Assembly (NCBI RefSeq): GCF_003721435.2
Contig: NZ_CP054586.1
Span: 248,001-312,000 of the forward strand
Length of the DNA stretch: 64,000 nucleotides
Source: Halorubrum sp. CBA1229
GTDB taxonomy: Archaea; Halobacteriota; Halobacteria; Halobacteriales; Haloferacaceae
Reading direction: 5' to 3'
The stretch's first letter is position 1, and each line of letters starts with the position of its first letter. Below the pieces are notes generated by a model. It was given only the letters and a program-made list of their open reading frames with translations, searched no databases and was not told where the DNA came from. Positions 12,131 through 63,943 of the stretch are shown piece by piece. The position numbers and the translations under genes were made by a program.

Positions 12131-12206
12131 AGCGACAGCTCAGCAGTATCAACAATCTCCTACAGAAGAGCAAATATGGTATTTTAAAGGCTTTAACCGT
12201 GGTTTA

Positions 12207-12222
12207 CACATCGATAGAGGGG
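12207..12222 (+). repeat. Origin-box family A, copy 1 (partial)
   Basis: CACATCGATAGAGGGG matches the first 16 bases of the family-A box. The final TGT is changed to AGA. It lies downstream of the orc1/cdc6 gene at 12363-13820. Confidence 0.7.
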
Positions 12223-12308
12223 AGACCGTCGAGGAAATTCAGAGAAGACATGTTCAGTAAATAAAGTTGGATTGGCATCAATTGGTATTTGCTACCAAAC
12301 AGGTTGTA

Positions 12309-12327
12309 CACATCGATAGAGGGGTGT
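12309..12327 (+). repeat. Origin-box family A, copy 2
   Basis: CACATCGATAGAGGGGTGT, identical to copies 3-6 apart from orientation. It lies 36 bp beyond the stop codon of the neighbouring orc1/cdc6 gene. Confidence 0.8.
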
Positions 12328-12362
12328 CTGGTGAGCCATTCGTTGCTAGATATTTGTCATAA

Positions 12363-13820
12363 TTACGTCTGGTTTCTGATCTGTGCTTTGACGACAGAGT
12401 CGACCTCGTCTTCAGAGACTATTTCAATCCGAGAGTCCTCACGCAGCGTCTCAAGGATCGTTTCCGGCCGTTCGCCGAATTGGAATTCGAGGAACATTCC
12501 GGAGCTGGGGCCGTGGCTCCGCCGTTTGAAGTCGACGAGAGAATACGTCGTGAGTTCTTTCATTTTGTTCACGTACGTTTCTTGATGGTACTGATCGGCG
12601 TCGATCGCGTCAGTCAGATACTGGTACAGGCGGTATCCCGTCGTACTCCGTGCCGTCCCATCGGGTGCCTGTGACGCGACGGCGGCTGTCGCGTACAGAC
12701 AGAGTTTCTTTTGGGTGCTGATCCCGCGGACGACCTCTAACACACGGTTCTTTTCGACTTTCGCCTGGGCGGCACGAACGTGTTCTTCACGAACCCGAGC
12801 GTCACCCTCCCGTTCCGCAAGCTCGCCGGCCACGCGCATCAGATCGATGGCTTTCCGTGCGTCACCATGCGTTTGCGCGGCGAAGGCAGCTGCAAGCGGG
12901 ATCACGTCGTCATCGATGACATCATCGTGGAACGCGTCTTGACGTCGCCGTAGAATAGCCTTGAGCTGGTCCGCGTCGTAATCATCGAAATGGACGTCTT
13001 CCGGGGTGAAGGAACTGACTGCCCGACTCCCCACGGCCTCCATCATTTTCGTATCGTTTGAGATAGCAACAACCGAAATGTACGCGTCGAGGTCGTCGTT
13101 CGCACCGGCTCGAGAGAGCTGATACAGCAGGCGTGAGAACGCAGGGTCCTGTTTATCACGCCGACCGACGAGCATATCCAGCTCGTCAAGCACGAACACG
13201 ACTGAGTCGAAGTTTGCATTCACGATTCGGTACAACTCATCCCATTTTTCTTTCGTCGCCACACCGTGTTTCGGGACGCGGACCTCGACGCCAGCCTCGT
13301 CTGCCGCCTGTTGGGCGAGTTCATACACGGCAACACCGAGCGTATCCAGGTCTTGGCAGTTTACCTCGATCGTCCCAAATTGGATGTCTCGGGAATCACA
13401 GATGCGGCTAATGTTGTGACAGACAGCTTTGGTGATGAGTGATTTCCCCGTTCCCGACGGGCCATACAAAAACAAGTTCGGCGGACGGTTGTCGCCGAGC
13501 GCGACACGGAGCATCTTCGTAACCTCTTGGAGCTGTTCGTCACGACCGACGATGCGGTCCTCTTTAACGACAAAATTGGGATCAAGCAGTGATCGATCGC
13601 GGATGAGCCCCTGTTGTTCGTCGAACTCTAGCAGCATGTCCTCGATTGATTGTTGAGACGCGTCAGTCGACTCGGTCGCCGACTGATCGGTATCACTCCC
13701 AGCAGCAGACTCTGATTGGGATTCAACCTCCGCGGTGCTCACCACATCAGAGTGTGCCGGAGGTTCATCCTCCAGCGATCCCGGATCCTCAGAGAGATCA
13801 TCGGAATCGTCGATATCCAT
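12363..13820 (-). CDS. Orc1/Cdc6 replication initiator, first copy
   Basis: The start at 13820 (MDIDDSDDLSED) is preferred over an upstream ATG at 13880 because a TATA-like TTTTCATA lies about 25 bases before it. The 485-residue product has an acidic N-terminal extension of about 85 residues. An AAA+ ATPase follows, with Walker A LYGPSGTGKS (about 129-138), Walker B VVFVLDELDML (about 214-224) and a sensor region with VAISND. A C-terminal winged helix (from about 400) would bind origin boxes. It assembles on origin-box repeats and helps load MCM. Six family-A boxes flank the gene, four of them upstream. A degenerate box near 13857-13874 overlaps its promoter, suggesting autoregulation. Confidence 0.92.
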   Translation of the reverse strand: MDIDDSDDLSEDPGSLEDEPPAHSDVVSTAEVESQSESAAGSDTDQSATESTDASQQSIEDMLLEFDEQQGLIRDRSLLDPNFVVKEDRIVGRDEQLQEVTKMLRVALGDNRPPNLFLYGPSGTGKSLITKAVCHNISRICDSRDIQFGTIEVNCQDLDTLGVAVYELAQQAADEAGVEVRVPKHGVATKEKWDELYRIVNANFDSVVFVLDELDMLVGRRDKQDPAFSRLLYQLSRAGANDDLDAYISVVAISNDTKMMEAVGSRAVSSFTPEDVHFDDYDADQLKAILRRRQDAFHDDVIDDDVIPLAAAFAAQTHGDARKAIDLMRVAGELAEREGDARVREEHVRAAQAKVEKNRVLEVVRGISTQKKLCLYATAAVASQAPDGTARSTTGYRLYQYLTDAIDADQYHQETYVNKMKELTTYSLVDFKRRSHGPSSGMFLEFQFGERPETILETLREDSRIEIVSEDEVDSVVKAQIRNQT

Positions 13821-13984
13821 ACTCGGAGTGACACCGGCCCGTATGAAAAAGGTTCGCACCTCTATCGAAGTGTGATTCAACGTTTAGAACGTCTATTCGC
13901 TCAATACCATCGATTAGAGTATGTAGTTCGTGTCGGTTATCCGCTAGCCGGTGACGATGTGTTCGAAAGCGTCCTATCGGAGAC

Positions 13985-14003
13985 ACACCCCTCTATCGAT
14001 GTG
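13985..14003 (-). repeat. Origin-box family A, copy 3
   Basis: Inverse of CACATCGATAGAGGGGTGT, exact match. Outer left box of origin A. Confidence 0.8.
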
Positions 14004-14177
14004 TTCGATGTCTTCACGGTGCGGGGGGTCAGGCGGGACCTTTGAGTCGAATCGTCACCGCTTGATGACTGTTCGGGCTCGAAAGCGCGGGATATCCTAT
14101 AAGAACGTCTTTCAAACGATGAGCGATAGTTGTCTCACCTCCCTTCTTCTCTTTCTACAAACATACAACACACACAC

Positions 14178-14196
14178 ACACCCCTCTATCGATGTG
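14178..14196 (-). repeat. Origin-box family A, copy 4
   Basis: Exact inverse of the 19-bp box. It is preceded by a short (AC)n run at 14166-14180 and is the inner left box of origin A. Confidence 0.8.
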
Positions 14197-14357
14197 TTTT
14201 GTCGTCAGTGTTCTATGGTTCTACAGACAACTATATTTGGCGTGCCTTTACTGTCGTCTAAAACCGCTCAAAAAGACCTTATATTCCTGTTTTCGAGAGG
14301 TACTCACTATACGCATCTCACATGACGAGGAAACCTCTCTCCAGTATTGCACAGAAA

Positions 14358-14376
14358 CACATCGATAGAGGGGTGT
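14358..14376 (+). repeat. Origin-box family A, copy 5
   Basis: Exact 19-bp box, inner right box of origin A. Confidence 0.8.
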
Positions 14377-14500
14377 GTGTCTCAACTCCCCACGAGTAGG
14401 CAGTCATGCCCGTGAGACAGGACCGATATAAACGGATCTGTTTTGATAACACCGTTGAACGATCCCTACCATTCACTCGGCTACTACAACGCGGTGTGAA

Positions 14501-14519
14501 CACATCGATAGAGGGGTGT
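14501..14519 (+). repeat. Origin-box family A, copy 6
   Basis: Exact 19-bp box, outer right box of origin A, 140 bp before the IS6 transposase gene. Confidence 0.8.
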
Positions 14520-14640
14520 CTCCTCGACTTTGAGTCCAACACAACCGAGACAGGGTGTGTCAATTGGTGCTTGCTAGCGGTTGTGGTGGTGGTGTTGAAA
14601 TAACGTCGAAGGATGAGGCGGTCAAAAAATTGAGTGGTTC

Positions 14641-15276
14641 ATGCTCTCGTTCGATCGCCTCAGCGGCGATAGCGGTCGTACCGAGTTAGATTTTCTGGAG
14701 CGAGAGGCGACACCCGAGCAGGCGATGAAGCTCGGTATTCGACCCCATTCGGCTGAATTACCATTTTTGGATATATTTTTAGTTCTTGAGAAGTTGGGTG
14801 TCGATCGCCATCGGACCACCGTTCATCGGTGGGTACAGAAAGCTGATCTACAGCCGACAGACGGTGCTGATCCGAATCACGTCGCGGTCGATGAAACCGT
14901 GATTCAGCTCAATTCTGAACGATATTGGCTGTACGCTACCGTCGATCCCGACACCAACCGCCTGCTCCACGTCCGACTGCATCCGACGAAAACCAACGCG
15001 ATCTCCTCGATGTTTCTCTCGGAACTGCGTGAGAAACATCAGGTTGACAACGCGGTCTTTCTCGTTGACGGTGCTCCGTGGCTGCAGGCGGCCTGCCATC
15101 GTCATGGGCTCCGATTCCAACACGTTACACATGGGAATCGGAATGCCGTCGAACGTGTCTTTCGCGAAGTAAAACGACAAACAAAACAGTTCTCAAATAT
15201 GTTTAGCCACGTCGAACCGAGTACCGCTGAAAATTGGCTCCAGGCGTTCGCCTTCGCATGGAACCAGCTTATCTAA
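14641..15276 (+). CDS. IS6-family transposase
   Basis: The 211-residue product has the length and full motif set of haloarchaeal IS6 (ISH14/15-like) transposases. These are an N-terminal HTH region with DRHRTTVHRWVQKADLQP (about 55-72), first Asp in HVAVDETVIQL (about 83), second Asp in FLVDGAPW (about 142) and Glu in NAVERVFREVKR (about 169). The DDE triad is intact. The usual left end (TGTTGAAATAACGTCG, near 14591-14606) is visible. No matching right terminal repeat is seen after ACACTACCG near 15285, where an unrelated inverted repeat begins. The element may therefore be truncated on the right. Confidence 0.9.
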   Translation: MLSFDRLSGDSGRTELDFLEREATPEQAMKLGIRPHSAELPFLDIFLVLEKLGVDRHRTTVHRWVQKADLQPTDGADPNHVAVDETVIQLNSERYWLYATVDPDTNRLLHVRLHPTKTNAISSMFLSELREKHQVDNAVFLVDGAPWLQAACHRHGLRFQHVTHGNRNAVERVFREVKRQTKQFSNMFSHVEPSTAENWLQAFAFAWNQLI

Positions 15277-15291
15277 ACACTACCGTTGTGG

Positions 15292-15331
15292 TTAACCAAC
15301 AAATTCTTCTAGGAACCGTTCGTTTGGTTAA
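15292..15331. repeat. Dispersed long inverted repeat, copy 1
   Basis: TTAACCAACA (15292-15301) faces GTTTGGTTAA (15322-15331), with one mismatch to the consensus right arm and a 20-bp spacer. It abuts the decayed polB 3' end, just as copy 3 abuts the intact polB stop. Confidence 0.75.
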
Positions 15332-15475
15332 GAACGAGCCGTGCCCGCGAATGCCGTCAAGTCTGGTATTTGTGTCTCCGCGAGTTCTCGACGAACCCCG
15401 TCTGATCCCAGCCAAGCGGTGACAGCACACTCTCGACAGCTCTGATGAGTTACGTCTCATAGTACGACTCGATTC
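15330..15475 (-). pseudogene. Remnant of a second family-B DNA polymerase 3' end
   Basis: About 140 bp match the last codons of the polB gene at 23316-25481. The run giving YETRL-RAVESVL-PLGWD on the minus strand (about 15385-15465) corresponds to 23385-23455. The match decays toward the stop. Copy 1 of the inverted repeat sits at the same relative place as copy 3 does behind the intact polB, so gene end and repeat appear to have been duplicated together. Confidence 0.65.
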
Positions 15476-15769
15476 CTTGTCAGCCGCAAGCTCCTCACGT
15501 TTGTCTTCCAGTGCATCGATGAGGAGCTGCATTTAAGGAAACATCGAGTATCTCGACGACGCTGTCATCACGCTCGACGAGAGATATCGGGGTGTTGAAA
15601 TCAACCAACACAGCCCTTCGTTCTATCGGCAATTTAAGCCGGGTGCTTTGGAGCCTCACCCCGAGGTAGTTCAGTATGTGAGAAGAGCATCAGCGCTACT
15701 CGTGAGTTGATATTTCGGGCATCTAACCTTTATATGTCCTACACGCGTAGTTTCACGTGGTGTGTTCAC
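15476..15769 (+). other. Gene-fragment region and cetZ promoter
   Basis: The plus strand has an open stretch without a start (about 15540-15710) reading NIEYLDDAVITLDERYRG and ending PEVVQYVRRASALLVS. It looks like the C-terminus of a lost gene of unknown family. A TATA-like TTTATAT near 15730 lies about 38 bases before the cetZ start. Confidence 0.45.
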
Positions 15770-16942
15770 ATGAAACTTGCATTAATTGGGGTCGGACAGG
15801 CAGGTGGGAAGGTGGTCGACGAGTTCTTGGCCTACGACGCACGGACCGGTGCAGATATCGTTCGTGGAGCGATCGCGGTCAACACGGCGAAAGCGGATCT
15901 CCAAGGCATCGACCGCCTCCCGAAGGACCGCCGCATCCTGATCGGGCAATCACGAGTAAAGGGCCACGGCGTGGGCGCGGACAACGAACTGGGCGCAGAG
16001 GTTGCTGAAGAGGACATCGACGAGATTCAAGGGGCACTCGACTCGGTGCCAGTCCACGAGATTGATGCGTTCCTCGTCGTCGCGGGACTCGGTGGGGGTA
16101 CGGGATCGGGTGGCGCGCCCGTCATCGCCAAGAACCTCAAGCGGATCTACACCGAACCTGTGTATGGGCTCGGTATCCTGCCCGGGAGCGACGAGGGTGG
16201 GATCTACACACTGAACGCCGCCCGATCGCTCAAAACGTTCGTCGATGAGGTGGACAATCTCATGCTGTTTGACAACGACGCGTGGCGCAGTTCGGGTGAG
16301 TCTGTCGGCGAGGGGTTCGATGCGATCAACAACGAGCTCGTCCAGCGGTTTGGTGTGCTCTTCAGTGCGGGCGAGATAACGAACGGAAGCGACGTCGCTG
16401 AGAGTGTCGTCGACTCCTCAGAGATCATCAATACGCTCAAAGGCGGCGGGATCTCCTCGTTGGGCTACGCCGATGTCAGCGTGGACGAACCGGAGCGGAA
16501 AGGGTTGCTCTCGCGACTCCGTGGCGATATGGATGATGGGATAGACAGTACAGAAGCCACAAACCGGATTACAAGTCTCGTCCGGAAGGCGACGCTGGGT
16601 CGACTCACCTTACCCTGTGAAGTGAACGGGACAGAGCGGGCGTTGCTTGTCGTCGCCGGCCCACCGGCGTACCTCAACCGGAAAGGAATCGAACACGGTC
16701 GCAAGTGGCTCGAAGAACAGACCGGCTCGATGGAGGTCCGTGGTGGTGACTATCCGCGGCGTGGGGAAGGGACGGTCGCAGCGCTCGTGTTGCTCGGCGG
16801 CGTGACGAACGTCCCGCGGGTGAAAGAACTCCAACAGGTCGCGATTGAGGCTCAACAGAATCTCGGTGAGATTACTGACGAGAGCGCAGACCGCTTTGCG
16901 GAGCTGATGGATAGTGACGGAGAACTGGAGTCGCTGTTTTGA
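15770..16942 (+). CDS. cetZ: CetZ tubulin-superfamily protein
   Basis: The 390-residue protein starts MKLALIGVGQAGGKVVDEF, a typical CetZ N-terminus; an in-frame ATG 21 codons upstream was not used. It carries the CetZ NTAKADLQGI segment (about 44-53), the tubulin GTP-binding signature GGGTGSG (about 108-114) and a T7-like loop near NNELVQRFG. The C-terminus is a short acidic tail. CetZ proteins are GTPases that control haloarchaeal cell shape and motility. It stands alone and is convergent with the methyltransferase; copy 2 of the dispersed repeat lies 60 bp beyond its stop. Haloarchaea carry several cetZ paralogues and the subgroup cannot be assigned here. Confidence 0.92.
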   Translation: MKLALIGVGQAGGKVVDEFLAYDARTGADIVRGAIAVNTAKADLQGIDRLPKDRRILIGQSRVKGHGVGADNELGAEVAEEDIDEIQGALDSVPVHEIDAFLVVAGLGGGTGSGGAPVIAKNLKRIYTEPVYGLGILPGSDEGGIYTLNAARSLKTFVDEVDNLMLFDNDAWRSSGESVGEGFDAINNELVQRFGVLFSAGEITNGSDVAESVVDSSEIINTLKGGGISSLGYADVSVDEPERKGLLSRLRGDMDDGIDSTEATNRITSLVRKATLGRLTLPCEVNGTERALLVVAGPPAYLNRKGIEHGRKWLEEQTGSMEVRGGDYPRRGEGTVAALVLLGGVTNVPRVKELQQVAIEAQQNLGEITDESADRFAELMDSDGELESLF

Positions 16943-17002
16943 GACCGTGATGGCCTCCTTCCTGGACTCTTTCCGAAGTGGCCGTCACCTTCCGTCGTCA
17001 GA

Positions 17003-17043
17003 TTAACCAACAGTTTGGCATACTCCGACAGTTTGTTGGTTAA
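17003..17043. repeat. Dispersed long inverted repeat, copy 2
   Basis: Exact arms TTAACCAACA and TGTTGGTTAA with a 21-bp spacer, between convergent genes. About 40 bp to its left (GACTCTTTCCGA and GTGGCCGTCACC) recur next to copy 5, so these two copies share a longer duplicated context. Confidence 0.85.
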
Positions 17044-22804: not shown

Positions 22805-23092
22805 ATGTACGACCTCACCGGCTTTCAGCGCGACCTGCTGTACTTGGTCGACGGGCTCAACGACCCCCACGGGCTCGCGATCAAAGATGAGCTCGACGAG
22901 TACTACGACCAAGAGATCCATCACGGGCGGCTCTATCCGAACCTCGACACCCTCGTCGAGAAAGGACTCATCGAAAAAAGCCAACGCGATAAGCGGACCA
23001 ACGAGTACACCACCACTCGGCGCGGGACCAGAGAAATCGAAGCCCGCGTTGAGTGGGAAGACCAGTACATCAATCGCGACACGGCGGATTAA
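22805..23092 (+). CDS. PadR-family transcriptional regulator
   Basis: The 95-residue product begins MYDLTGFQRDLLYLV and contains the PadR winged helix: GLAIKDELDEYYDQEIHHGRLYPNL is the HTH with the conserved GxLYPxLxxLxxKGLI pattern. It lacks a long C-terminal dimerisation helix. Members sense small molecules and often repress neighbouring exporters; the adjacent divergent ABC exporter fits this. A near-identical paralogue lies at 63662-63943. Confidence 0.88.
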   Translation: MYDLTGFQRDLLYLVDGLNDPHGLAIKDELDEYYDQEIHHGRLYPNLDTLVEKGLIEKSQRDKRTNEYTTTRRGTREIEARVEWEDQYINRDTAD

Positions 23093-23275: not shown

Positions 23276-23319
23276 TTAACCAACAGTTCCCCGCTCTGAA
23301 CGGTTCCTCTGTTGGTTAA
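23276..23319. repeat. Dispersed long inverted repeat, copy 3
   Basis: Exact arms TTAACCAACA and TGTTGGTTAA with a 24-bp spacer. The right arm includes the polB stop codon (TAA on the minus strand, 23316-23318). The polB coding end and the repeat are physically fused. Confidence 0.85.
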
Positions 23320-25481
23320 TTATTCGCCGGGTTCGTGTACGCCGACAACTCTGGGATCCGCGTCTCTGCGATCTCACGTCGGATCTCCGTCCGATCCCAG
23401 CCGAGCGGTGCCAGCACACTCTCGACAGCTCTGACGAGTCGCGTCTCATAGTACGACGCATCGTACGACGCTATCTCCTCGTGGGCTAACGCGACCCGTG
23501 CTCGCGAGCTTTTCTCGTCGTCGACGACTACGTACTCGATATCTTGTCCCGGGTGAATAGCGAGGTCCTGCTCGCGACCCCGTTTCAACGCAGCCACGTT
23601 TTGGGTATTCTGCGTGTACCCTTCCAGCGGCTTGGAGACACGATTTCGTTCGACGAGCTGCTTGACCGGCACCGTTCCAGCGTGGAGGCGCTTGATGGCG
23701 TCCTGGAGACAGTCGAGGACGGCGTCCGGTGACCGCGTGGCATCGAGCCGGTCGAGACACTCCCGCTGGACGGCCTCGATGAACGGCGGGGTTGAGCGCT
23801 GCCGGGCTTCGATACCTCTGATCTTGAAGTCATCGCCGCCGGCGACCTTTCCGAAGTACTTCGTCAGCGCGCCGGCGTCGCTCTCGCGCTGCGGCACGAA
23901 CGCCACCCAGTCGTAGTGGGCCTCGTGTTCGAGCCGAATCTCGACGCGCTCCGTGATCTCCGTCGCGAGCGTCTCGAGGTCCTCGCGGTCCTCGTCGTCG
24001 CCGTCGGGGTCCGGGGTCACCCAGATGGAGTCGACGATACCGTGGACGACGCGCCAGCCGCCAGCTTCCAGTCGCTGTTTCGCCGTCAGCAGAATCTCAC
24101 GAGCGAACGCGTTGATTGCTTCGTGGCACTCGATGCGGCCGAACTTCGCGTTGCTAAACCCTTGATAGCCGAAGCAGGCGACGAGGATCCACTTCAGCGC
24201 TCCCGACCGTCCCTCGAGTTCCGCCAGACGGTCCTCGTCGGGATCGTCTCGATCCGTCTCGCGACGGATGGCCGCCTTGATCTCGTCGCGAGCGTCGATG
24301 ATCGGCTGTAGCACGTCGACGAGGTACCCCCGCTCGTCGCAGATCGAGTATCCAAGGCCGGGGACGTCGTCGCGGTCGCGGTGGCAGTCACACCGGATGA
24401 CGTCCGGTGAGACGTTCCGGGTACAGATGATGTTCGGGTACAACGAGGAGAAGTCGAGTTCGTGGACGTTCTCGTGGAGGCCGACCTCGGGCGCGAAGAT
24501 GAAGCCGCCACGGTCGGCGTCGTGGAGCGTCCCCATCGGCTTGTAAAACTCGTGACGCCAGGAGTTCCACGGGACGAGGACACCGCGGTCGTGGGCCTCG
24601 CAAATCTGGATCGCCGTGAGGACGTTCCCGATCGACGCCCACGCGAGCTCCTGGACGGGCTTGTTCGAGCGCGACACGAGATCGAGGACGCCCTCAAGAT
24701 TTGTCTCTCCGTAGAAGAACGTGTTCGACTCGTCGATGATCGCCCGCCCGGGCACGTTGTACCGCGCCGGCGAGTGACCGACGCGGCCGTAGCTCGAGTA
24801 CGTCGACCGGCTCGCAAGCTGCTGGTAGCCGACGTCCGGCCACCGACTCAGCGAGAAGTCGTCGACGCCGGCGTCCGTCGCCATCTCGTACAGGGTCGGG
24901 ACGATCTCGCTCGTCGAGCAAACCAAGACATCTGGATCGTGTGCGTCGAGCGCTCTCTGGACAGCCGTGAGGAGATCCGTCGGCGAGCCGATGACAGTGT
25001 CGCCGGCGACGGACAGTTCCTCGTAGACGTCGTTGCTCGTTTCGGTCACTGGGACGCTGAGCCGGAGCGTCGACAGCTCGCTCGCCGGCGTCGGATCGAT
25101 GCCGGTCTCCAGACAGTACCGGAACGCTCGCGAGAAATCGACGTTGAAACAGGCGAGATCGCCGACTGGATGCTCTGATAGGTGGCGTGTCTGTCGCGCA
25201 AGCGGTGTGACGCGGTCGACGTGGTCGACGTCGACAGCGAGAGCAGACTCGCCGTCACGACGAAATCCGGACCGCCGGGATACGATCTCGGTCGCGACGA
25301 CATCCGGGTGTCGTTCATATTGTGCGCGAAGTGGTGTGAGATCGATGTCGGTCTCAGAGTCACGTGCTGCGACGTAAAACCGGGGCGTGTAGTCGTCGCG
25401 GTCGGTCGCGGTTGCGCCGTCGTTGGTCGCTTCCCACTCGAGGACGCGACCATCGTCAAGGAAATCGATTGTGAACGGCAT
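23316..25481 (-). CDS. Family-B DNA polymerase with degenerate exonuclease domain
   Basis: The 721-residue product is a short family-B polymerase. Motif A is ELDFSSLYPNII (Asp about 343). Motif B is LKWILVACFGYQG (Lys about 430). Motif C is GIVDSIWV, where the usual DTDS reads IVDS, so the second, essential Asp (about 484) remains. The N-terminal part has no Exo I DxE (only LRLSVPV at about 139-145), and the Exo II region reads DPDVLVCSTSEIV without the Asn and Asp. Proofreading in cis is therefore probably lost. A separate DEDD exonuclease is encoded at 26936-27592. It probably serves repair, translesion synthesis or plasmid replication rather than being the main replicase. A TATA-containing divergent region with repeat copy 4 lies upstream. 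Confidence 0.88.
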   Translation of the reverse strand: MPFTIDFLDDGRVLEWEATNDGATATDRDDYTPRFYVAARDSETDIDLTPLRAQYERHPDVVATEIVSRRSGFRRDGESALAVDVDHVDRVTPLARQTRHLSEHPVGDLACFNVDFSRAFRYCLETGIDPTPASELSTLRLSVPVTETSNDVYEELSVAGDTVIGSPTDLLTAVQRALDAHDPDVLVCSTSEIVPTLYEMATDAGVDDFSLSRWPDVGYQQLASRSTYSSYGRVGHSPARYNVPGRAIIDESNTFFYGETNLEGVLDLVSRSNKPVQELAWASIGNVLTAIQICEAHDRGVLVPWNSWRHEFYKPMGTLHDADRGGFIFAPEVGLHENVHELDFSSLYPNIICTRNVSPDVIRCDCHRDRDDVPGLGYSICDERGYLVDVLQPIIDARDEIKAAIRRETDRDDPDEDRLAELEGRSGALKWILVACFGYQGFSNAKFGRIECHEAINAFAREILLTAKQRLEAGGWRVVHGIVDSIWVTPDPDGDDEDREDLETLATEITERVEIRLEHEAHYDWVAFVPQRESDAGALTKYFGKVAGGDDFKIRGIEARQRSTPPFIEAVQRECLDRLDATRSPDAVLDCLQDAIKRLHAGTVPVKQLVERNRVSKPLEGYTQNTQNVAALKRGREQDLAIHPGQDIEYVVVDDEKSSRARVALAHEEIASYDASYYETRLVRAVESVLAPLGWDRTEIRREIAETRIPELSAYTNPANN

Positions 25482-25664: not shown

Positions 25665-25706
25665 TTAACCAACAGAACGACCGTCTCACTGATGACTGTT
25701 GGTTAA
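25665..25706. repeat. Dispersed long inverted repeat, copy 4
   Basis: Exact arms with a 22-bp spacer, in the divergent region between polB (start 25481) and the winged-helix gene (start 25799). Confidence 0.85.
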
Positions 25707-25798
25707 GACTGCTGTGGACAGTCCTCCATATCTTGGATTCGGTGATCAATATACTACCCCACAGATTATTATACCGCTCTCTCGTTGGTTGGCACATA

Positions 25799-26410
25799 AT
25801 GTCCGAGGAGCCGTCCCCGCCCCACCGAATGAGCTCGGATGGCGGCACCGACCACCGTGACGTGAACGACGTCGTCGAAGCAGAATGGATCGAGGAGACG
25901 ACGCCCTTTGAACGAGTGTACGAAGTCATCTCTCGTGTGTACGATCCGCTGTCTGCAGCACAGATCGCCGAGCGTGCCCGCGTCTCATCGACCACGGCGC
26001 GAAAGCACCTGCGAACGCTCGAGAGCGCTGGTGAGGTAACGACATCTCAGGATGGTCAGACGACGCACTACCGACGGTCGGAAACGGCTATCGTCACCGA
26101 ACACGCCCAGTCGCTCCTCGCGGAACGGACGCCCGAAGAGATCGCGTCCGGCATCGCTGATATGAAGGCGCAAATACAAGCGTGGCGCGAGGAATACGGT
26201 GTTGATTCACCCGAGGAATTCGCCCGAGAGCTGGATATCGACGACGCTGACAGCGACCACGGTGCGCTCCTCACAGAATGGCAAACGACGCGGCGTAACC
26301 TCGCGCTCGCACAGGCAACACTCGCGATCGGCGAAGTGAGTCAAACTGGTCACCTCACTGGCACGGATACGGACGACGATGGTAACGGCGATACATCCGT
26401 CGTCGTATGA
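25799..26410 (+). CDS. Winged-helix protein, possible antitoxin partner
   Basis: The ATG at 25799 gives 203 residues; a TATA-like ATTATTATACC at 25765-25775 fits it, so the upstream ATG at 25733 was not used. A winged-helix domain occupies about 35-95, with AAQIAERARVSSTTARKHLRTLESAGEV. A helical region with many Glu and Arg follows to about 180. The C-terminal tail is very acidic. Its stop overlaps the next start by ATGA, so the two are translated together. The pattern of DNA-binding gene plus small overlapping gene resembles haloarchaeal toxin-antitoxin-like pairs, but this is inferred. Confidence 0.75.
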   Translation: MSEEPSPPHRMSSDGGTDHRDVNDVVEAEWIEETTPFERVYEVISRVYDPLSAAQIAERARVSSTTARKHLRTLESAGEVTTSQDGQTTHYRRSETAIVTEHAQSLLAERTPEEIASGIADMKAQIQAWREEYGVDSPEEFARELDIDDADSDHGALLTEWQTTRRNLALAQATLAIGEVSQTGHLTGTDTDDDGNGDTSVVV

Positions 26411-27908: not shown

Positions 27909-28853
27909 CTATTGACCTCCTGTATCGCTCGCCGTCCACGCATCGAGCAAGGGGTCGGCGGTGGCCGCCACCGTCTCACCGTCAGCGGTGACGCTCGTCC
28001 CGACGCCCTCCGGGGTCGGCGTCGACGGCGCCGGCGTCGTCGGTTCCACGCCGACCTGCGTGGCGCGTGCCGCGAGCAGCTGCCGCCAGTACGCGAACGT
28101 CGTCTGGTAGTACGCGCCGTCGTCGACGGGGTAGACGAGCGTCTCGACGTCCTCGCCGACGACCCGTGGCCCCATCCGGGTCTGCTCACATTCCAGATGG
28201 TGGTCGGCGACCGTCGCAATTGGTTCGGTGAATTCGTTTCGTTCGTTTCGCGTAACGAGCACCGGGATGTCGTACCCCTCGGCGTAGGTCCCTAACCGAG
28301 CAAGGGTGCGGGCCTGGAGGGTTTTTGCGTGGGTTTCGCCGAGGGTATCGTCGGCGCGGTACTGGGTGTCGACGGCCGGCGCGACGATGAGCGACGGGGT
28401 GTGTGAAGACGAGTCTTCGCTTTGACCCGATGACTGTCGACCGGATGTGCCGGTGACAGCGGTCGATTTCTGGATGACTTGGTTTACTGCCGTCGGGAGA
28501 TCATCGACAGCGCCGTAGTGCTGGTACGCGGTAAATCCCCGTGCGACGTGGATCCGGTCGAGCAACCGCTGGCTCGGTGTGATCTGAGCCAGCGTCGTCG
28601 TCGTCGCGTGGCCGTTCGCATCAACCCAGAAGGTGGGGCCATCGTGTACCAGGAGATGGTCAAGTACGAGCGACTGGAGGATTGGGACGCCACGGCCGCC
28701 GTCTATGTCGAGCAGCGTGATGCCGTCGTCGAGTGACGGTAGGAGCATTTCTTCTGTGGTTGGGTCGGCTTGCTCTGCCAGGCCCAGATTGCGGTCTGCG
28801 CCCCGTGTCGGCTTGTCGGCCGCCATTCGGTTCGATGGTGGGTGGTCTCCCAT
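27909..28853 (-). CDS. RecA/RadA-like protein lacking a canonical P-loop
   Basis: The 314-residue product has a RecA/RadA-like core: GITLLDIDGGRGVPILQSLVLD where RadA has its Walker A, then FWVDANGHATTT, LLDRIHVARGFTAYQH, a Walker-B-like SLIVAPAVD and later IPVLVTRNERNEF. The Walker A Lys-Thr/Ser is missing, so ATP binding as in RadA is unlikely. The last 60 residues are Thr/Pro/Ala-rich. It is the first gene of the operon with the small helical protein and the exonuclease. A RecA-like protein next to an unusual polymerase recalls the bacterial ImuA-ImuB-DnaE2 mutagenesis cassette; the analogy is inference. Confidence 0.7.
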   Translation of the reverse strand: MGDHPPSNRMAADKPTRGADRNLGLAEQADPTTEEMLLPSLDDGITLLDIDGGRGVPILQSLVLDHLLVHDGPTFWVDANGHATTTTLAQITPSQRLLDRIHVARGFTAYQHYGAVDDLPTAVNQVIQKSTAVTGTSGRQSSGQSEDSSSHTPSLIVAPAVDTQYRADDTLGETHAKTLQARTLARLGTYAEGYDIPVLVTRNERNEFTEPIATVADHHLECEQTRMGPRVVGEDVETLVYPVDDGAYYQTTFAYWRQLLAARATQVGVEPTTPAPSTPTPEGVGTSVTADGETVAATADPLLDAWTASDTGGQ

Positions 28854-29268
28854 ACTCGATAACTAGTCACGCTCTCAATAAGCGACGGCGCGGTGCTTCC
28901 GGACTTCCAGAAAGGACTTTACAAAACGTCAATTCGGACTCTGTCACCGGATCTTGAGGAGTGGTCGACTGTTTCCAAGACTCTTTCCGAGGTGGCCGTC
29001 ACCCTTGATCGTCGGATTAACCAACATTTCGGTATGTCCCGGCAGATTGTTGGTTGATTTAGCTATTCTTATTGTACCGACCCCGTCGATGATATCTGTA
29101 GATATGATATTCTAGAATATGATTATTCAGAATATTTTCATCAGGCACGACAGAAGCCACGGGAGCTCCGACTGGAACAGCTCGTCGAAGCTGCGGCCGA
29201 CACGGTTCCTGGTCTCGAAGACATTTGTCCTGATTGTTGCCCGCGACCCAGGAAACGCATCATACCGG
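28854..29268. other. Intergenic region with repeat copy 5
   Basis: No convincing gene in 415 bp. The left end carries the promoter of the RecA-like operon (TATA-like CTTATTGA about 30 bases upstream). Copy 5 of the dispersed repeat is at 29017-29057. An AT-rich run follows at about 29085-29135. A short plus-strand stretch (about 29145-29260) reads PRELRLEQLVEAAADTVPGLEDICPDC and might be a gene remnant. Confidence 0.4.
29017..29057. repeat. Dispersed long inverted repeat, copy 5
   Basis: TTAACCAACA faces TGTTGGTTGA (one mismatch) with a 21-bp spacer. The preceding ~35 bp match those before copy 2. Confidence 0.8.
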
Positions 29269-30466: not shown

Positions 30467-31495
30467 TTACGAAACCGGCGACGCAGCCGCTGAGTCGACG
30501 AGCGAGTACTCCCGGTCCCGACTCGTCCCTTCTGCCTCAATCAGATTGTACTGGGCCATCTTCGAGAGATATGTTCGAACGGTGCGCTTCGTTCGGGGCT
30601 CATCAACTTCCGCAGTGTAGCGGCTGTGAATTTCACTTGGGGCGAGCGGACCGTGATCGCGAACGATATCGTACACGACCCGCTGGTGTGGCGTGAGCGA
30701 ATCGAGGCTCTTCTGTTTAATCTGTGCCTTGGCGTCGTCAGCCGCATCGGCGAGAATCTCAGTCGTAATCCGATCGTGGTTCTCCCGCGCAGCCGTGCTG
30801 GCTGCGCTGCGAAGCATCCCGATAGCCAGACGGGCATCACCAGCGGCGGCATCAGCGATCTGATAAAGCTGCTCGTCGGTAATGACGCTGTTTTCAAGCC
30901 CCCATTTCGTTCGAGCGCTCAGAATGTCGTAGAGTTGCTCGTTGTGGTACTTGTCCATCCGGACGTGCTCGCTGGAGCGCAGCCGACTCACCAGCCGGTC
31001 GTCAACGCGGCTGAACAGCTCTTCTTCTTTGTTCGCGATACAGATCACCGCGAACTGCTCCATGCTGTGGAGGTCGTAGATGAGGCTCGGGTCTTCGAGT
31101 TGATCGACCTCGTCGAGGATGACGACGGTTCGAGGACCGTCGTACTGTTGGAGCCGATCAATGAGCTCGTCGTGGGGTGTCGACTGCCGATGAATGTCTA
31201 TCGTCGCACCGATGTCGTCGAGGATCTGGTACAGTGTCCGGAAGCGGCTGTAGTTTCGCCAGCAGTTGACGTAGGTGGCCTCGACGTCGAGCACTTCCTC
31301 GCGGAGCCGTTCAGTGACGAACTTCGAGACACAGGTTTTACCGACACCGCTCGGGCCGGTGACGATGGCCGTGTCAGCTGGCTCGCCGTTCGTGATCGGC
31401 TCGAGAACGCTTGAGAGGTGGTTGACTTCGGCGTCGCGATGCTCGACTTCTCGAGGGACGAACCCAGCGCGGAGGACGCGAGCATCACGGATCAT
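30467..31495 (-). CDS. Orc1/Cdc6 replication initiator, second copy
   Basis: The ATG at 31495 (MIRDARVLRAGFVPREVEHRD) is the usual start of this haloarchaeal Orc subgroup; the open frame continues upstream but is not conserved. The 342-residue AAA+ protein has Walker A VTGPSGVGKT (about 46-55), Walker B TVVILDEVDQL (about 125-135), the ISM-bearing AAA+ core, and a winged-helix C-terminus from about 250 (LTPHQRVVYDIVRDHGPLAPSEIHSRY). It lacks the long acidic N-terminal extension of the first copy. Family-B origin boxes lie 0.9-1.3 kb upstream, and a decayed fragment of a similar gene lies at about 32300-32410. Confidence 0.9.
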   Translation of the reverse strand: MIRDARVLRAGFVPREVEHRDAEVNHLSSVLEPITNGEPADTAIVTGPSGVGKTCVSKFVTERLREEVLDVEATYVNCWRNYSRFRTLYQILDDIGATIDIHRQSTPHDELIDRLQQYDGPRTVVILDEVDQLEDPSLIYDLHSMEQFAVICIANKEEELFSRVDDRLVSRLRSSEHVRMDKYHNEQLYDILSARTKWGLENSVITDEQLYQIADAAAGDARLAIGMLRSAASTAARENHDRITTEILADAADDAKAQIKQKSLDSLTPHQRVVYDIVRDHGPLAPSEIHSRYTAEVDEPRTKRTVRTYLSKMAQYNLIEAEGTSRDREYSLVDSAAASPVS

Positions 31496-31772
31496 CGGTC
31501 GTGGGTAGTTATTCTCAGCGTGAGTGATATAAGTGTGACCGGGGAGATTCCGGAAACGCTCTGATCGCAGTGGTATCTTCACCTCGATTGCCCCGCCGTC
31601 TCTCGATTCTGATTGTGTAACCACACTGCTTCCGGAAACGTCCAGAAACCCAGTCTACGGTGTAGAGCTCGCTCTATACAGATCACAGTAGTTCGAGCCG
31701 GCTGGACCTCATGGAGAGCACTGTCTGACGTGCTCATCGAGATCGCTAGGTCGTAGATACAGACAGACAGCT

Positions 31773-32066
31773 TTAGCTCTGGTTGCCTGCGTCAAATACG
31801 GCGGCAAAGTCCTCGAGAAGCTCCTGAGGTGATTGCTCATCACCCTGAGACGGAAGTGGTGCTTCCCAGCAGTCGATCTGGAGTGTGTGTGCATTCGATA
31901 CCGGCTCCGGGTCGGTTACTATATTAAAGATACCGGTATGATAGATAGCAAGTAGTCGCTGATCATGAACACCGACATAATCGATACCAGCCCGATCTAG
32001 GACTGCCGGAATGTCAGTGGGCTCAGATAGCGAGACAGAGGCGCTTGGAGACGCCGAGTCGCTCAT
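31773..32066 (-). CDS. Small hypothetical protein
   Basis: The 97-residue acidic product (MSDSASPSASVSLSE) has a strand-rich middle with GIDYVGVHDQRLLAIYHTGIFN and no recognised motif. A TATA-like TTTATCC about 30 bases upstream supports expression. It lies between the second orc gene and origin B. Repeat copy 6 is 63 bp upstream. Confidence 0.5.
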   Translation of the reverse strand: MSDSASPSASVSLSEPTDIPAVLDRAGIDYVGVHDQRLLAIYHTGIFNIVTDPEPVSNAHTLQIDCWEAPLPSQGDEQSPQELLEDFAAVFDAGNQS

Positions 32067-32128: not shown

Positions 32129-32160
32129 TTAACCAACAGTAGCGGGATTTTGTTGGTTAA
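32129..32160. repeat. Dispersed long inverted repeat, copy 6 (short spacer)
   Basis: Exact arms TTAACCAACA and TGTTGGTTAA with a 12-bp spacer. The start-to-start arm distance is 22 bp against 30-34 in the other copies, a difference of about one helical turn. Confidence 0.85.
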
Positions 32161-32415: not shown

Positions 32416-32424
32416 ATCTGTCGC

Positions 32425-32448
32425 ACACCCCTCGTTGCCGCTGTAAAC
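32425..32448 (-). repeat. Origin-box family B, copy 1
   Basis: Exact inverse of copy 3 over 24 bp; key parts ACACCCCTCGTTGCCG and CTGTAAAC. Confidence 0.75.
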
Positions 32449-32486
32449 ATCTCCCGGGAAATGGTATGGTGGCTCGAAAGAGATGG

Positions 32487-32507: not shown

Positions 32508-32785
32508 ACCACCGTAGAGCGGTGTATTTATGGAAAATATCCACCTGCCCGCTCACACGTTCTACTATCAACACCACATCGACCAGTAATTTTATACCAA
32601 AGCGTGTTGTTTGCTACCGTACCACGCTTTTGGCATACTGAGAGGCCATGTTGTTTTGGCGTCGAAGACCTGAACCGTATGTTTCACCGTCATGGTGTTT
32701 TCCCCCAACTCACGTAGCTGACCGGCTCTCGCTCGACTTTCTCCGAATCACCCGCAATTTCATCTGGAGGTCACACATCATTCGT

Positions 32786-32809
32786 GTTTACAGCGGCAAC
32801 GAGGGGTGT
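32786..32809 (+). repeat. Origin-box family B, copy 3
   Basis: GTTTACAG followed by CGGCAACGAGGGGTGT, inverted relative to copies 1 and 2. Confidence 0.75.
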
Positions 32810-32958
32810 GAGACCACCTCGATACTACTCTTAGAGCGGCAATACGCAGCCCGTTATAAGACTAGAATTCTCAAAAAGAGTTTTGAAAAGAATTTATAAT
32901 GTGAAACAAACGGGATATCTACTGTGAGCGGACAACGGGAGATAATATAGGTAGCTCT

Positions 32959-33548: not shown

Positions 33549-34956
33549 TGTCAACAACCCCACCCTACTTCGCTCACCCTGACGGGTTCGCTCGTTGAGG
33601 GAGGGGCTTGTCCGTGAGCTCGGCCTCGAACCCGTCCGGGTGGGCGGTGAATCCGCCACTCGGCGTCACCGTTCCAGACTTGAGGGCGAGTTGACTGTCG
33701 CCCGTCCGCCGAGACGACTGTTGGCCTCGATGGACGTACCGCATCCCGATGTTCTTCGCCGCATTGTAATCCGCGTTCGCTTCCGACTCACACTTCACGC
33801 ACCGGAAATCCGTGCGAGTTCGGCGATTCTCCTCAGCTGTGAATCCACACTCGGCACACCGCTGTGACGTGTACGCCGAACCCACTTGCTTCACAGAGAT
33901 GCCGACTGCTTCGGCTTTGTACTCCACTTGCTCGTACAGCGTTCGGAACGCCCACTTGTGCCCCCACGACGCACCCGTTCGGTCGCGGATGTCAGTCAAG
34001 TCCTCGAACGCAATTACGTCGCACTTGTATCGAAGTGCTTCATCCACAATCGCGTTCGACACTTGGTGAACCACGTCACGAACGTATCGTAGTTCGCGTC
34101 CACTTGATTGTTCGAGCGTTCTGTGGGCGCTTCGCGTGCCTGTCTGTTGGAGTCCTGCACGGACTTTCTCGAACTCGCGGAGGTTATGAGAGAATTCGCG
34201 CCCGTTGACGAATCGTGCTGTGCTGGTGACGGCGAGGTTTTCAATACCGAGGTCGACCCCGAGAACCGTTCCGTCCTCGGCGGTGTCTCGCTCGGTGTCG
34301 GTCTTGGGTCGGCGGAAGCTAATGTGCAAAAAGTAGTCACCGTCACGAGCAGTGAGCGTGCTTTCCGTGACGCTCCAGTGGTCGGAGTCGAGATACTGCC
34401 GTTGGTAGCCATCCTCGGCTTCAGGGAGCGCAAGGTCACATCGGACGCGACTCTCCGTCGTGGAGAGTGACACTGTATCGTCATCGAACAGCGTCATCGT
34501 TCGAGTGTCGTAAGTTATCGTGGGTGCGGTGAACGTCGGCTTACTGACCTGTTTGCCGTTCGAGCGGCGTTCGAGACAGCCAGTGATGGCTTGAGCTGCT
34601 TGGTGTGTGGCGAGAATCGCGTGCTGACTCCCGAGGTCGGTGTGTTCGCGCACGTCGTCGTAAGCGAGGGGCTGTACGTCGCTTTTCGCGTTACAGTTGC
34701 CCCACGCCATGTCCGTGGTGAGTTGGCACCCGCGCTTCCACTCGGAGATCGTCTCTTCGAGGAGGTCGCGTTGCTCGTCCGTAACCTCAAGACGAGTGAT
34801 TGCCGTCCGACGCACGTAGTCGTCTGCCACATATATAATGTATATAGAAGGATACATATAAGTAGTGTTTATGACTGATACGAACGCGCTCCTCCTCTCC
34901 CTACTCACTCCCTTCGGTCGCTCCTTGAGGAAGGGGACTCCGCGCTACCGCTTCAG
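33549..34956 (-). mobile_element. tnpB-only IS200/IS605-type (IS1341-like) element in orc1/cdc6
   Basis: The element carries a tnpB gene on the minus strand and no tnpA, and lies inside the third orc1/cdc6 gene. Ends were placed where the Orc reading frame breaks, so they are accurate only to a few bases. The left (5') end includes CCTTGAGGAAGGGG-type hairpin sequence near 34920-34940. The right (3') end runs just past the tnpB stop. No target duplication is expected for this family, and none is seen. Confidence 0.75.
33574..34830 (-). CDS. tnpB: TnpB, RNA-guided nuclease of IS200/IS605 type
   Basis: From a GTG at 34830 (VADDYVRRTAITRLEV) the product has 418 residues; an upstream in-frame ATG at 34908 adds unlikely sequence. 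RuvC catalytic residues are present: Asp in VLGVDLGIENLAV, Glu in DVIAFEDLTDIRD, and Asp in ANADYNAAKNIG. The zinc ribbon has two CxxC pairs, CAECGF and CVKCE. TnpB nucleases use an RNA overlapping the gene's 3' end to cut target DNA and keep the element at its site. The guide region would extend leftward past 33574 into orc sequence. The nuclease looks intact. Confidence 0.9.
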   Translation of the reverse strand: MADDYVRRTAITRLEVTDEQRDLLEETISEWKRGCQLTTDMAWGNCNAKSDVQPLAYDDVREHTDLGSQHAILATHQAAQAITGCLERRSNGKQVSKPTFTAPTITYDTRTMTLFDDDTVSLSTTESRVRCDLALPEAEDGYQRQYLDSDHWSVTESTLTARDGDYFLHISFRRPKTDTERDTAEDGTVLGVDLGIENLAVTSTARFVNGREFSHNLREFEKVRAGLQQTGTRSAHRTLEQSSGRELRYVRDVVHQVSNAIVDEALRYKCDVIAFEDLTDIRDRTGASWGHKWAFRTLYEQVEYKAEAVGISVKQVGSAYTSQRCAECGFTAEENRRTRTDFRCVKCESEANADYNAAKNIGMRYVHRGQQSSRRTGDSQLALKSGTVTPSGGFTAHPDGFEAELTDKPLPQRANPSG

Positions 34957-48229: not shown

Positions 48230-49714
48230 AATCAAGGAGAATACCTGCGCCTTTAGGCGCAGGATGAATCCGACAACACCTGCACAACCCACCGTCGATA
48301 GCAAGGCCGGATATTCTACGCCAGCCGACACTATTAATAAAACAGCATCCATAACCAGTTATGAAGCCAGAAATGAGTCGAACCATCCGAACCTTCGAGG
48401 CTACTATCACGAATCAGCAACAGGTTCGTGACGACCTTGACCAACTCGGATGGGCCGCCTCAAAACTCTGGAACGTCGGTCGCTACTACGCACAAGAACA
48501 GTGGGACGAAACGGGCGAGATCCCCGATGACGGGGAACTCAAAGCCGAACTCAAACGCCATGAACGCTACACGGACTTACATTCTCAGTCCAGTCAGCGC
48601 GTTCTCGAAGAACTCGCTGAAGCGTTCAACGGCTGGTTCGGCAAGCGTCGGAACGGCGACGACCGTGCCAGACCGCCCGGCTACCGCAAGAACGGAGACT
48701 CCCACCCACGTTCAACCGTGTCGTTCAAAGCGGCTGGCTTCAAGCACGACGCACAGTTCACCCGTGTCCGCCTCTCGAAAGGCCTCAACCTCAAAGAACA
48801 CCGTTCAGACTTCATCCTGTGTGAGTACCAGACTCGCCCGGATGTTGACCTGACCGAGTGGGACATTCAGCAGGTTCGCGCGATCTACAAGCGCGACGAG
48901 TGGCGACTACAATTCGTCTGTCGCACCACTATCGACCCGGACCCACCGGGCGACGAAGTGGCCGGTGTTGACCTCGGGATGTGCAACTTCGCCGCCGTCT
49001 CGTTCGGCGGTGAATCGATGTTGTATCCCGGTGGCGCACTCAAAGAGGACGAATACTACTTCACGAAAAAGAAGGCTAAGTGCGACGATTCCTCGTCTCG
49101 TGTGGCCACCCGTCTTGACCGGACGCGGAGGGGTCGTCGGACACACTTCTTGCACGCACTCTCGAAAGCGATTGTCGAGGAGTGCGTCGAACGAGATGTC
49201 GGGACTCTTGTCGTTGGCGACCTCGGCGGGATCCGAGAGGACGACGAGAACGGCGAGTCTCGGAATTGGGGCGACCACGGCAATCTTGACTTGCACGGGT
49301 GGGCGTTCGACCGCTTCACGGCGCTACTTGACTACAAGGCGGAAGCCGAAGGCATCGACGTGGAGTTGGTGTCGGAACGCGATACGTCGAAGTCGTGTTC
49401 AGCATGTGGTCACACGGATGACAATCAGCGTGTGGAACGTGGGTTGTACGTCTGTGAGGCGTGCGATACGGTTGCGAACGCGGACGTGAACGGTGCGGAG
49501 AACATTCGACAAAAGGTACTCCCGAGTCTCGCCACGGATGGCGGCGATAGGGATAACGGCTGGTTGGCACAGCCAGCGGTTCACCTGTTCGACCGCAGCG
49601 AGGGCCGTTTCGCCCCACGAGAACAGGTCGTGAACCGCGAACCATAATATCCCAACTCAGCGGTGCGGTGCCGTGGGATTCCCGCGTCTTCAGGCGCGGG
49701 AGGATGTCAATACC
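48230..49714 (+). mobile_element. tnpB-only IS200/IS605-type element in mobA
   Basis: Boundaries were placed at the break in the MobA frame. A perfect hairpin (CCTGCGCC-TTTA-GGCGCAGG, 48244-48263) marks the left end. A similar hairpin (CCCGCGTC-TTCA-GGCGCGGG, 49681-49700) followed by AGGATGTCAA marks the right end. There is no tnpA, so movement would need help from another element's TnpA. Confidence 0.8.
48361..49647 (+). CDS. tnpB: TnpB, RNA-guided nuclease of IS200/IS605 type
   Basis: The 428-residue product has RuvC residues in VAGVDLGMCNFAAV (Asp), VGDLGGIRED (Glu) and ANADVNGAENI (Asp). The zinc ribbon is CSACG and CEACD. An N-terminal helical region with KLWNVGRYYAQEQW is typical of the family. 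ATG 48361 or 48373 could start it. It is unlike the TnpB at 33574-34830 outside the motifs, so the two elements come from different lineages. The catalytic set is intact. The guide RNA should overlap the 3' end and the right-end hairpin, with its guide in the mobA sequence at about 49715. Confidence 0.92.
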   Translation: MKPEMSRTIRTFEATITNQQQVRDDLDQLGWAASKLWNVGRYYAQEQWDETGEIPDDGELKAELKRHERYTDLHSQSSQRVLEELAEAFNGWFGKRRNGDDRARPPGYRKNGDSHPRSTVSFKAAGFKHDAQFTRVRLSKGLNLKEHRSDFILCEYQTRPDVDLTEWDIQQVRAIYKRDEWRLQFVCRTTIDPDPPGDEVAGVDLGMCNFAAVSFGGESMLYPGGALKEDEYYFTKKKAKCDDSSSRVATRLDRTRRGRRTHFLHALSKAIVEECVERDVGTLVVGDLGGIREDDENGESRNWGDHGNLDLHGWAFDRFTALLDYKAEAEGIDVELVSERDTSKSCSACGHTDDNQRVERGLYVCEACDTVANADVNGAENIRQKVLPSLATDGGDRDNGWLAQPAVHLFDRSEGRFAPREQVVNREP

Positions 49715-63661: not shown

Positions 63662-63943
63662 ATGTACGATCTCACTGGCTTTCAGCGCGATCTGCTGTAC
63701 GTAGTTGCCGGACTTGATGACCCCCACGGACTCGCGATCAAAGACGAGCTCGAGGACTACTACGAAAAGGAAATCCATCATGGTCGGCTCTATCCGAATC
63801 TCGACACACTCGTTGAGAAGGGACTTGTCGAGAAAAGTCAGCGAGACCGTCGAACCAACGAGTACACTACCACTCGTCGGGGCAACAGAGAAATTGAGGC
63901 GCGAGCAGAATGGGAAGCTGAGTACATCGACCACGACGGCTGA
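63662..63943 (+). CDS. PadR-family transcriptional regulator, second copy
   Basis: The 93-residue product (MYDLTGFQRDLLYVVAGLDD) is nearly the same as the PadR protein at 22805-23092, differing by few residues in the HTH (YYEKEIHHGRLYPNLDTLVEKGLVEKS). It carries the complete PadR winged helix. It stands alone here, without the ABC exporter that the other copy faces, so one copy probably arose by duplication or transfer. No target is visible in the window. Confidence 0.88.
   Translation: MYDLTGFQRDLLYVVAGLDDPHGLAIKDELEDYYEKEIHHGRLYPNLDTLVEKGLVEKSQRDRRTNEYTTTRRGNREIEARAEWEAEYIDHDG

Follow-up and report, generated by a model that had tools for sequence, protein, structure and literature searches.

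The pdif site of the XerC/XerD system is 28 bp long, with an 11-6-11 layout and ordered XerC and XerD halves. The attC sites of integrons carry the core boxes RYYYAAC and GTTRRRY. KorB of RK2 is a global regulator whose operators occur replicon-wide as short contiguous palindromes.

Herein, an inverted-repeat site of haloarchaea is compared with these systems. The window is a 64,000-nucleotide stretch of the 363,938-bp plasmid C2 of Halorubrum sp. CBA1229 (G000:C2:248001-312000), whose chromosome C1 has 3,218,340 bp. Six copies of the repeat were found in the window (Table 1), and the pattern is not due to chance, with 4 exact pairs compared with 0 in 100 shuffles. The repeat of copy 1, which lies behind a decayed end of a family B DNA polymerase gene (polB), is a member of a large family that marks gene borders on haloarchaeal plasmids and in some viruses. 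Our main reading is that the repeat is a pair of half-sites read by one putative protein and that copies 1 and 2 are the ends of a lost polB operon. We give this reading a probability of about one half.

The pdif sites of Acinetobacter plasmids resemble the present sites: both are short, are dispersed over plasmids, and border modules that consist of one or a few genes. Compared with pdif, the sites here are 41 or 42 bp long, with symmetrical arms, an unconserved middle of 21-22 bp, and a break rate that is not clearly raised. Similarly, the attC sites of integrons, which are also described in archaea (PMC9668308), show inverted short boxes, a variable middle, and a frequent position directly behind a stop codon. 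The site arms AACCAAC/GTTGGTT deviate from the attC core at one position, and, unlike attC, the sites here are also found upstream of genes. No integrase was found among the window genes scanned beside the sites. Like the sites, the KorB operators occur in many copies on a single replicon and in various gene contexts; the sites here, unlike these palindromes, are two half-sites placed three turns apart.

The PATE, SMR and MITE of Haloquadratum are described in PMC3119063 as mobile elements that end in repeats or have palindromes near their ends. They resemble the sites as small inverted-repeat features of haloarchaeal genomes; unlike them, the sites here are conserved only in the arms and are tied in position to genes. 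The repeats treated in passages of PMC3119063, PMC11431627, and PMC10818511 differ from this site. No published description of the site was found in the open-licence literature searched, and one may exist elsewhere.

Table 1 Repeat copies, polB remnant and neighbouring genes in the window.
Feature	Position	Strand	Remark
Site copy 1	15292-15331		40 bp; right arm with 1 mismatch; at 3' end of polB remnant
Decayed 3' end of polB (remnant coding for the C-terminus)	15332..15468	-	Alignment to polB ends
CetZ tubulin-like gene	15707..16942	+	Between copies 1 and 2; Pfam CetZ_C E=3e-79
Site copy 2 with remnant of 314-aa-gene 5' region	16947..17043 (site 17003-17043)		78% over 95 bp to 28961-29055
Site copy 3	23276-23319		Arm includes the stop codon of intact polB
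Intact family B DNA polymerase gene	23316..25481	-	721 aa; Pfam DNA_pol_B E=1e-25
Site copy 4	25665-25706		Between polB and divergent DUF7342 winged-helix gene
DUF7342 helix-turn-helix gene	25733..26410	+
314-aa gene	27909..28853	-	Copy 5 in 5' region; no match in Pfam or PHROG
Site copy 5 with conserved flank	28961..29057 (site 29017-29057)		One arm with 1 mismatch
AAA+ Orc1/Cdc6-like gene (phrog_7998)	30467..31624	-	Between copies 5 and 6
97-aa gene	31773..32066	-	Copy 6 lies 62 bp upstream
Site copy 6	32129-32160		32 bp; 62 bp upstream of 97-aa gene start

Architecture and conservation of the site

The consensus of the site is TTAACCAAC(A/G)-N21/22-(T/C)GTTGGTTAA. Arm pairing and length were counted in 30 contigs comprising 1,708,567 bp. 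Exact arms were found in inward pairs in 268 of 282 cases. When at most one mismatch per arm was permitted, 144 inward pairs were counted, compared with 0 for the reversed control, 0 for the outward control, and 2 for the direct control. The length of the exact pairs was 41 bp in 71 and 42 bp in 45 of 134, giving 116 with one of these two lengths. None was below 31 bp, so the 28-bp length of pdif was not seen. The centres of the two arms are about 31.5 bp apart, which by arithmetic is three helical turns. The nearly constant inward pairing of the arms and the sharp length of 41/42 bp fit two half-sites for one DNA-binding protein. Copy 6 has 10 bases fewer than a homologous 42-bp site (L271:6553), a difference of one helical turn seen in this single case.

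Conservation was measured in 246 orthologous gap pairs (65 sites), which were located via both flanking proteins, independently of the site in the subject. The identity was 0.964 and 0.966 for the two arms, 0.612 for the spacer, and 0.747 and 0.686 for the outer 20 bp on the two sides. Both arms matched at 9/9 positions in 216 of the 246 pairs. The site pair is under clear selection, and its conserved arms enclose a fast-evolving spacer. A MITE-type element would have a conserved interior or ends with a target duplication; the spacer here is unconserved.

Distribution in haloarchaea and viruses

The genome of the strain contains 18 exact sites, 16 on the 364-kb plasmid C2 and 2 on the 3.2-Mb chromosome C1. 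Among 59 genomes of relatives, the site was present in 38 and the reversed control pattern in 1, and the number of sites per genome ranged from 0 to 34. In a sample of the whole class, 99 of the 145 haloarchaeal genomes and 44 of the 58 genera had the site.

A collection of named sequences gave at least 120 stretches with sites. Of 80 titles, 75 were haloarchaeal and 5 were bacterial; the 5 bacterial stretches were removed by hand, and 40 of the 120 stretches (L101-L140) were used with titles unseen. Similarly, 74 stretches with sites were found in IMG/VR, and the genes were inspected in five. One of these contigs (L143) encodes both a terminase and a portal protein. This indicates that at least one real virus has the sites. 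Thirteen sites of 45 bp, in IMG/VR as far as checked, appear to be chance matches in a coding gene.

Placement of the sites relative to genes

Gap orientation was assigned by a simple home-made gene caller, which also underlies the neighbour conservation, family and stop-codon distances, promoter search, orthologous gaps and bracketed insertions in this study. By this caller, the 141 gaps with a site were tandem in 80, divergent in 42 and convergent in 19 cases, compared with 596, 251 and 231 among the non-site gaps of at least 40 bp. In several convergent site gaps, both stop codons fall within about 30 bp. In 82 tandem gaps, the median distance from the site to the upstream stop codon was 18 bp, where random placement gives 55 bp. 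The half-sites are conserved, inverted and constrained in spacing, as in replicon-wide operators. Their placement is not confined to upstream regions, and the convergent sites (19 of 141) indicate that a plain promoter operator is insufficient. A search for a fixed AT-rich promoter signal next to the sites showed none, and no link of the spacer to one gene orientation emerged either.

The position of the sites close behind stop codons favours an RNA hairpin with a 10-bp stem and a loop of 21-22 bases, which would serve on either strand as a terminator or as an element of RNA stability. Among 13 sites with mutated arms, 2 carried matching changes in both arms, as base pairing would require, which favours the hairpin and counts against the half-site model. 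In the other 11 only one arm was altered, and at arm position 10 no covariation was found, as the match of 0.775 observed and 0.767 expected (n = 320) indicates independent variation. Furthermore, a loop would not require the sharp length limit, 42 of the 141 site gaps are divergent, and no Rfam family was found at the sites. The hairpin is highly improbable on these data.

The distance from site to gene depends on the gene family. For the SWIM-type 273-aa protein, the site was located 49-52 bp upstream in 11 of the 12 members having a 5' site. For polB it was located 183 bp upstream in 3 of 4 such members, window copy 4 included, and for the 314-aa family 156-163 bp upstream in all 5 members. 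DUF6610 proteins had the site 60-78 bp upstream in 9 of 11 cases. In the 313-aa family, which is ArdC-like according to its annotated members, the site was behind the stop codon in 13 of 16 cases, 12 of them within 18 bp. A site at the end of polB was found not only in the window but also in Halorarius and several further contigs. Among the genes adjoining the sites are polB, Orc1/Cdc6-like genes and genes for anti-restriction. The phrog_7998 AAA+ protein encoded in the window also adjoins sites in three IMG/VR contigs (L149:1090-2178, L203:8492-9607, and L208:4490-5563).

These family-specific distances also weigh against a role for the whole replicon, such as partition by centromere-like sites, replication control, compaction or packaging, where the places at gene borders would be merely tolerated. 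Such a role agrees with the location of 16 of the 18 exact sites on the plasmid, with the sites in viral contigs, one of them with terminase and portal genes, and with the occurrence of the sites in all gene orientations. A range of 0 to 34 sites per genome is hard to reconcile with an essential function, and every gene family has its own site distance. We consider a replicon-wide role unlikely.

When the neighbouring gene differed, homologs retained a site on the same side in 54% of stop-facing (n = 411) and 77% of start-facing (n = 648) comparisons, against a background of 141 of all 1768 gaps (8%); here and in the other comparisons of this study, sequence pairs rather than independent events are counted. 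The initial annotation had proposed that the repeats travel with gene ends, as in cassette exchange or duplication. Particular gene ends are indeed accompanied by the site across genera, and this part of the proposal holds; cassette exchange as the reason is not supported.

The arrangement of two neighbouring families was also recorded. In L216:20610-22253 and L018:14796-16441, a two-gene module with two bounding sites lies between the ArdC-like and SWIM-type genes. In L217 and L001, the ArdC-like and SWIM-type genes are joined by a single site.

A decayed polB end and a probable lost operon

When 15332-15468 was aligned locally to the end of polB at 23320-23457, the score was 132, compared with a maximum of 27 in 300 mononucleotide shuffles. 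Within this region, the repeat search gave 89% identity without gaps between 15393-15468 and the intact polB end at 23382-23457. By blastn, the remnant together with its site was 76% identical to the window's own polB over 187 bp, so that the match extends through the repeat to 15468, where the polB homology ends. The remnant is at least one base short relative to all five aligned relatives.

The second polB gene end with the same inverted repeat, as initially annotated, is confirmed, as is the position of copy 1 behind the remnant, which is that of copy 3 behind the intact gene. A shared flank of about 40 bp had also been described for copies 2 and 5. It was borne out and proved longer, with about 95 bp at 78% identity, spacer included (16947-17041 and 28961-29055). 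The flanks of the copies were compared by alignment, and similarity was present.

The same relative position and the 89% identity over 76 bp would suit a recent duplication in which copy 1 arose together with the adjoining end of the window's own polB. In comparison, the remnant and its site share 84% identity over 182 bp with the end of polB in another species (G023:C11), against the 76% to the window's own polB. In an alignment with five other polB ends, the spacer of copy 1 was also closer to that of G023 than to that of copy 3. A recent duplication is very unlikely in view of these comparisons. A separate polB lineage appears likelier than a fresh internal duplication as the source of the remnant, because the remnant is nearer to the G023:C11 polB than to that of the window.

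An intact order of these genes is found in Halorarius halobius (NZ_CP101165), where a site at 38194 is followed by the 314-aa gene, a 102-aa gene, polB, and a site at 41809. When the window is read leftwards, copy 2 corresponds to the start of this operon, and the polB remnant together with copy 1 corresponds to its end. By this order, a second polB operon appears to have been lost from the window; copies 1 and 2 would mark its two ends, and cetZ is the gene that lies between them today. Such an operon, from the 314-aa gene to polB, would have lost its interior, and its end sites would have survived beside the remnants. The duplication proposed initially thus keeps one part, since a second polB operon seems to have left copies 1 and 2 behind; a fresh duplication is the less likely source, since the remnant is nearer to the polB of the other species.

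Breaks, insertions and possible exchange at the sites

The repeats were also considered as recombination sites bounding exchangeable gene modules, comparable to pdif modules or integron cassettes. Exchange would then depend on a putative recombinase or on the short homology that the arms provide. The break counts in this comparison, and the spacer-pair and junction comparisons, retain the 13 chance-like 45-bp sites. Without correction, 44 breaks within 25 bp were counted for 345 sites, compared with 40 for 783 other gaps. With correction for coverage, breaks were found in 170 of 739 alignments at risk at the sites and in 227 of 1189 at other intergenic gaps (0.230 vs 0.191) for alignments of at least 90% identity, a small excess. 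The per-point mean break rate at high identity was 0.261 at the sites and 0.259 in other gaps, so that no excess is left by this measure. At 80-90% identity, the breaks were 629 of 1327 at sites and 915 of 2364 in other gaps (0.474 vs 0.387). Breaks are not clearly commoner at the sites than in other intergenic gaps, and cassette exchange is therefore unsupported as the main explanation.

Individual junctions are more favourable to recombination. Three recent-looking contig pairs (L011/L080, L096/L134, and L029/L034; 95.6-96.1% identity) match through the flank and the site and break at most 10 bp past the distal arm, and further recent-looking exchanges end directly at an arm. Insertions bracketed by sites, between genes that a single site joins elsewhere, were found in 18 of 57 subject places, compared with 5 of 173 for non-site gaps; many places were counted from both directions. 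These 18 separated gene pairs with sites flanking the inserted genes fit module exchange and count against the half-site model. A homologous flank was seen without a homologous opposite flank in 642 of 1066 pairs.

On the other side, neighbour conservation was 0.36 (n = 1516) at the sites and 0.38 (n = 5367) elsewhere. Both flanks were kept with unlike spacers in 35 pairs, so an altered spacer is no proof of a crossover. No gene for a recombinase could be linked to the sites, and no clear case of spacer inversion was seen among the compared site pairs. Recombination as the main explanation is weakened by the neighbour conservation, the spacer turnover and the coverage-corrected break rate. It is retained as a rival on account of the higher uncorrected breaks, the exchanges ending at an arm and the bracketed insertions, and we regard it as rather doubtful.

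A wider proposal is a class-wide system of module borders, in which palindromic half-site pairs read by a common protein would fix the gene borders and also permit the gain and loss of modules of one to a few genes. This is clearly unlikely in our assessment. If it applies, it may be a site-based cassette system of plasmids and viruses, unlike integrons and Xer modules.

The half-site model and candidate binding proteins

The preferred reading remains two half-sites for one protein. The repeat would consist of two inverted half-sites of 9-10 bp, about 31.5 bp apart from centre to centre, and one dimeric or tetrameric protein would recognise both arms as double-stranded DNA. The paired 10-letter sites probably bind such a putative protein, which would act across haloarchaeal plasmids, integrated elements and viruses. 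The protein-site complex would set the borders of transcription units or regulate adjacent promoters; alternatively, it would be an operator for replication, anti-restriction or other plasmid genes. The paired arms, the fixed length, the conserved arms and the family-specific distances are supported by sequence, and from them we infer the protein and its effect.

Three proteins were tried as the binder in the 59 genomes and rejected. The PF24271 double winged-helix protein is absent in G023 (18 sites) and G010 (10 sites). The presence of DUF6610 does not follow the presence of the sites. The phrog_7998 AAA+ protein has no strong match in G006 (15 sites), G008 (9 sites) and G021 (11 sites), and has a strong match in the site-free G027, G038 and G055.

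Other features of the window

An IS6-like element at 14588-15284 has a DDE transposase gene (14641-15276). By eye, it has imperfect 16-bp inverted ends and is flanked by an 8-bp target duplication (14580-14587 and 15285-15292), the last base of which is the first base of copy 1. In the region 12190-14527, an Orc1/Cdc6 gene (12363-13880) is flanked on both sides by ACACATCGATAGAGGGGTGT repeats, which occur in the two orientations; this region is a candidate plasmid replication origin. A 30-bp inverted pair (32420-32449 and 32785-32814), 97% complementary and 335 bp apart, lies near a TnpB-like gene (33574-34908). A match to the Rfam family sot0042 (sense overlapping transcript) was found at 49514-49701 with 122 bits. 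The PadR-like regulator gene at 22805-23080 is 80% identical in DNA to 63662-63937.

Significance

Two thirds of the sampled haloarchaeal genomes contain the site pair. Should a single protein bind it, mobile elements of haloarchaea would have a common regulator or organiser in this protein. The sites are also a simple marker for the history of plasmids, as in the example of the proposed lost polB operon.
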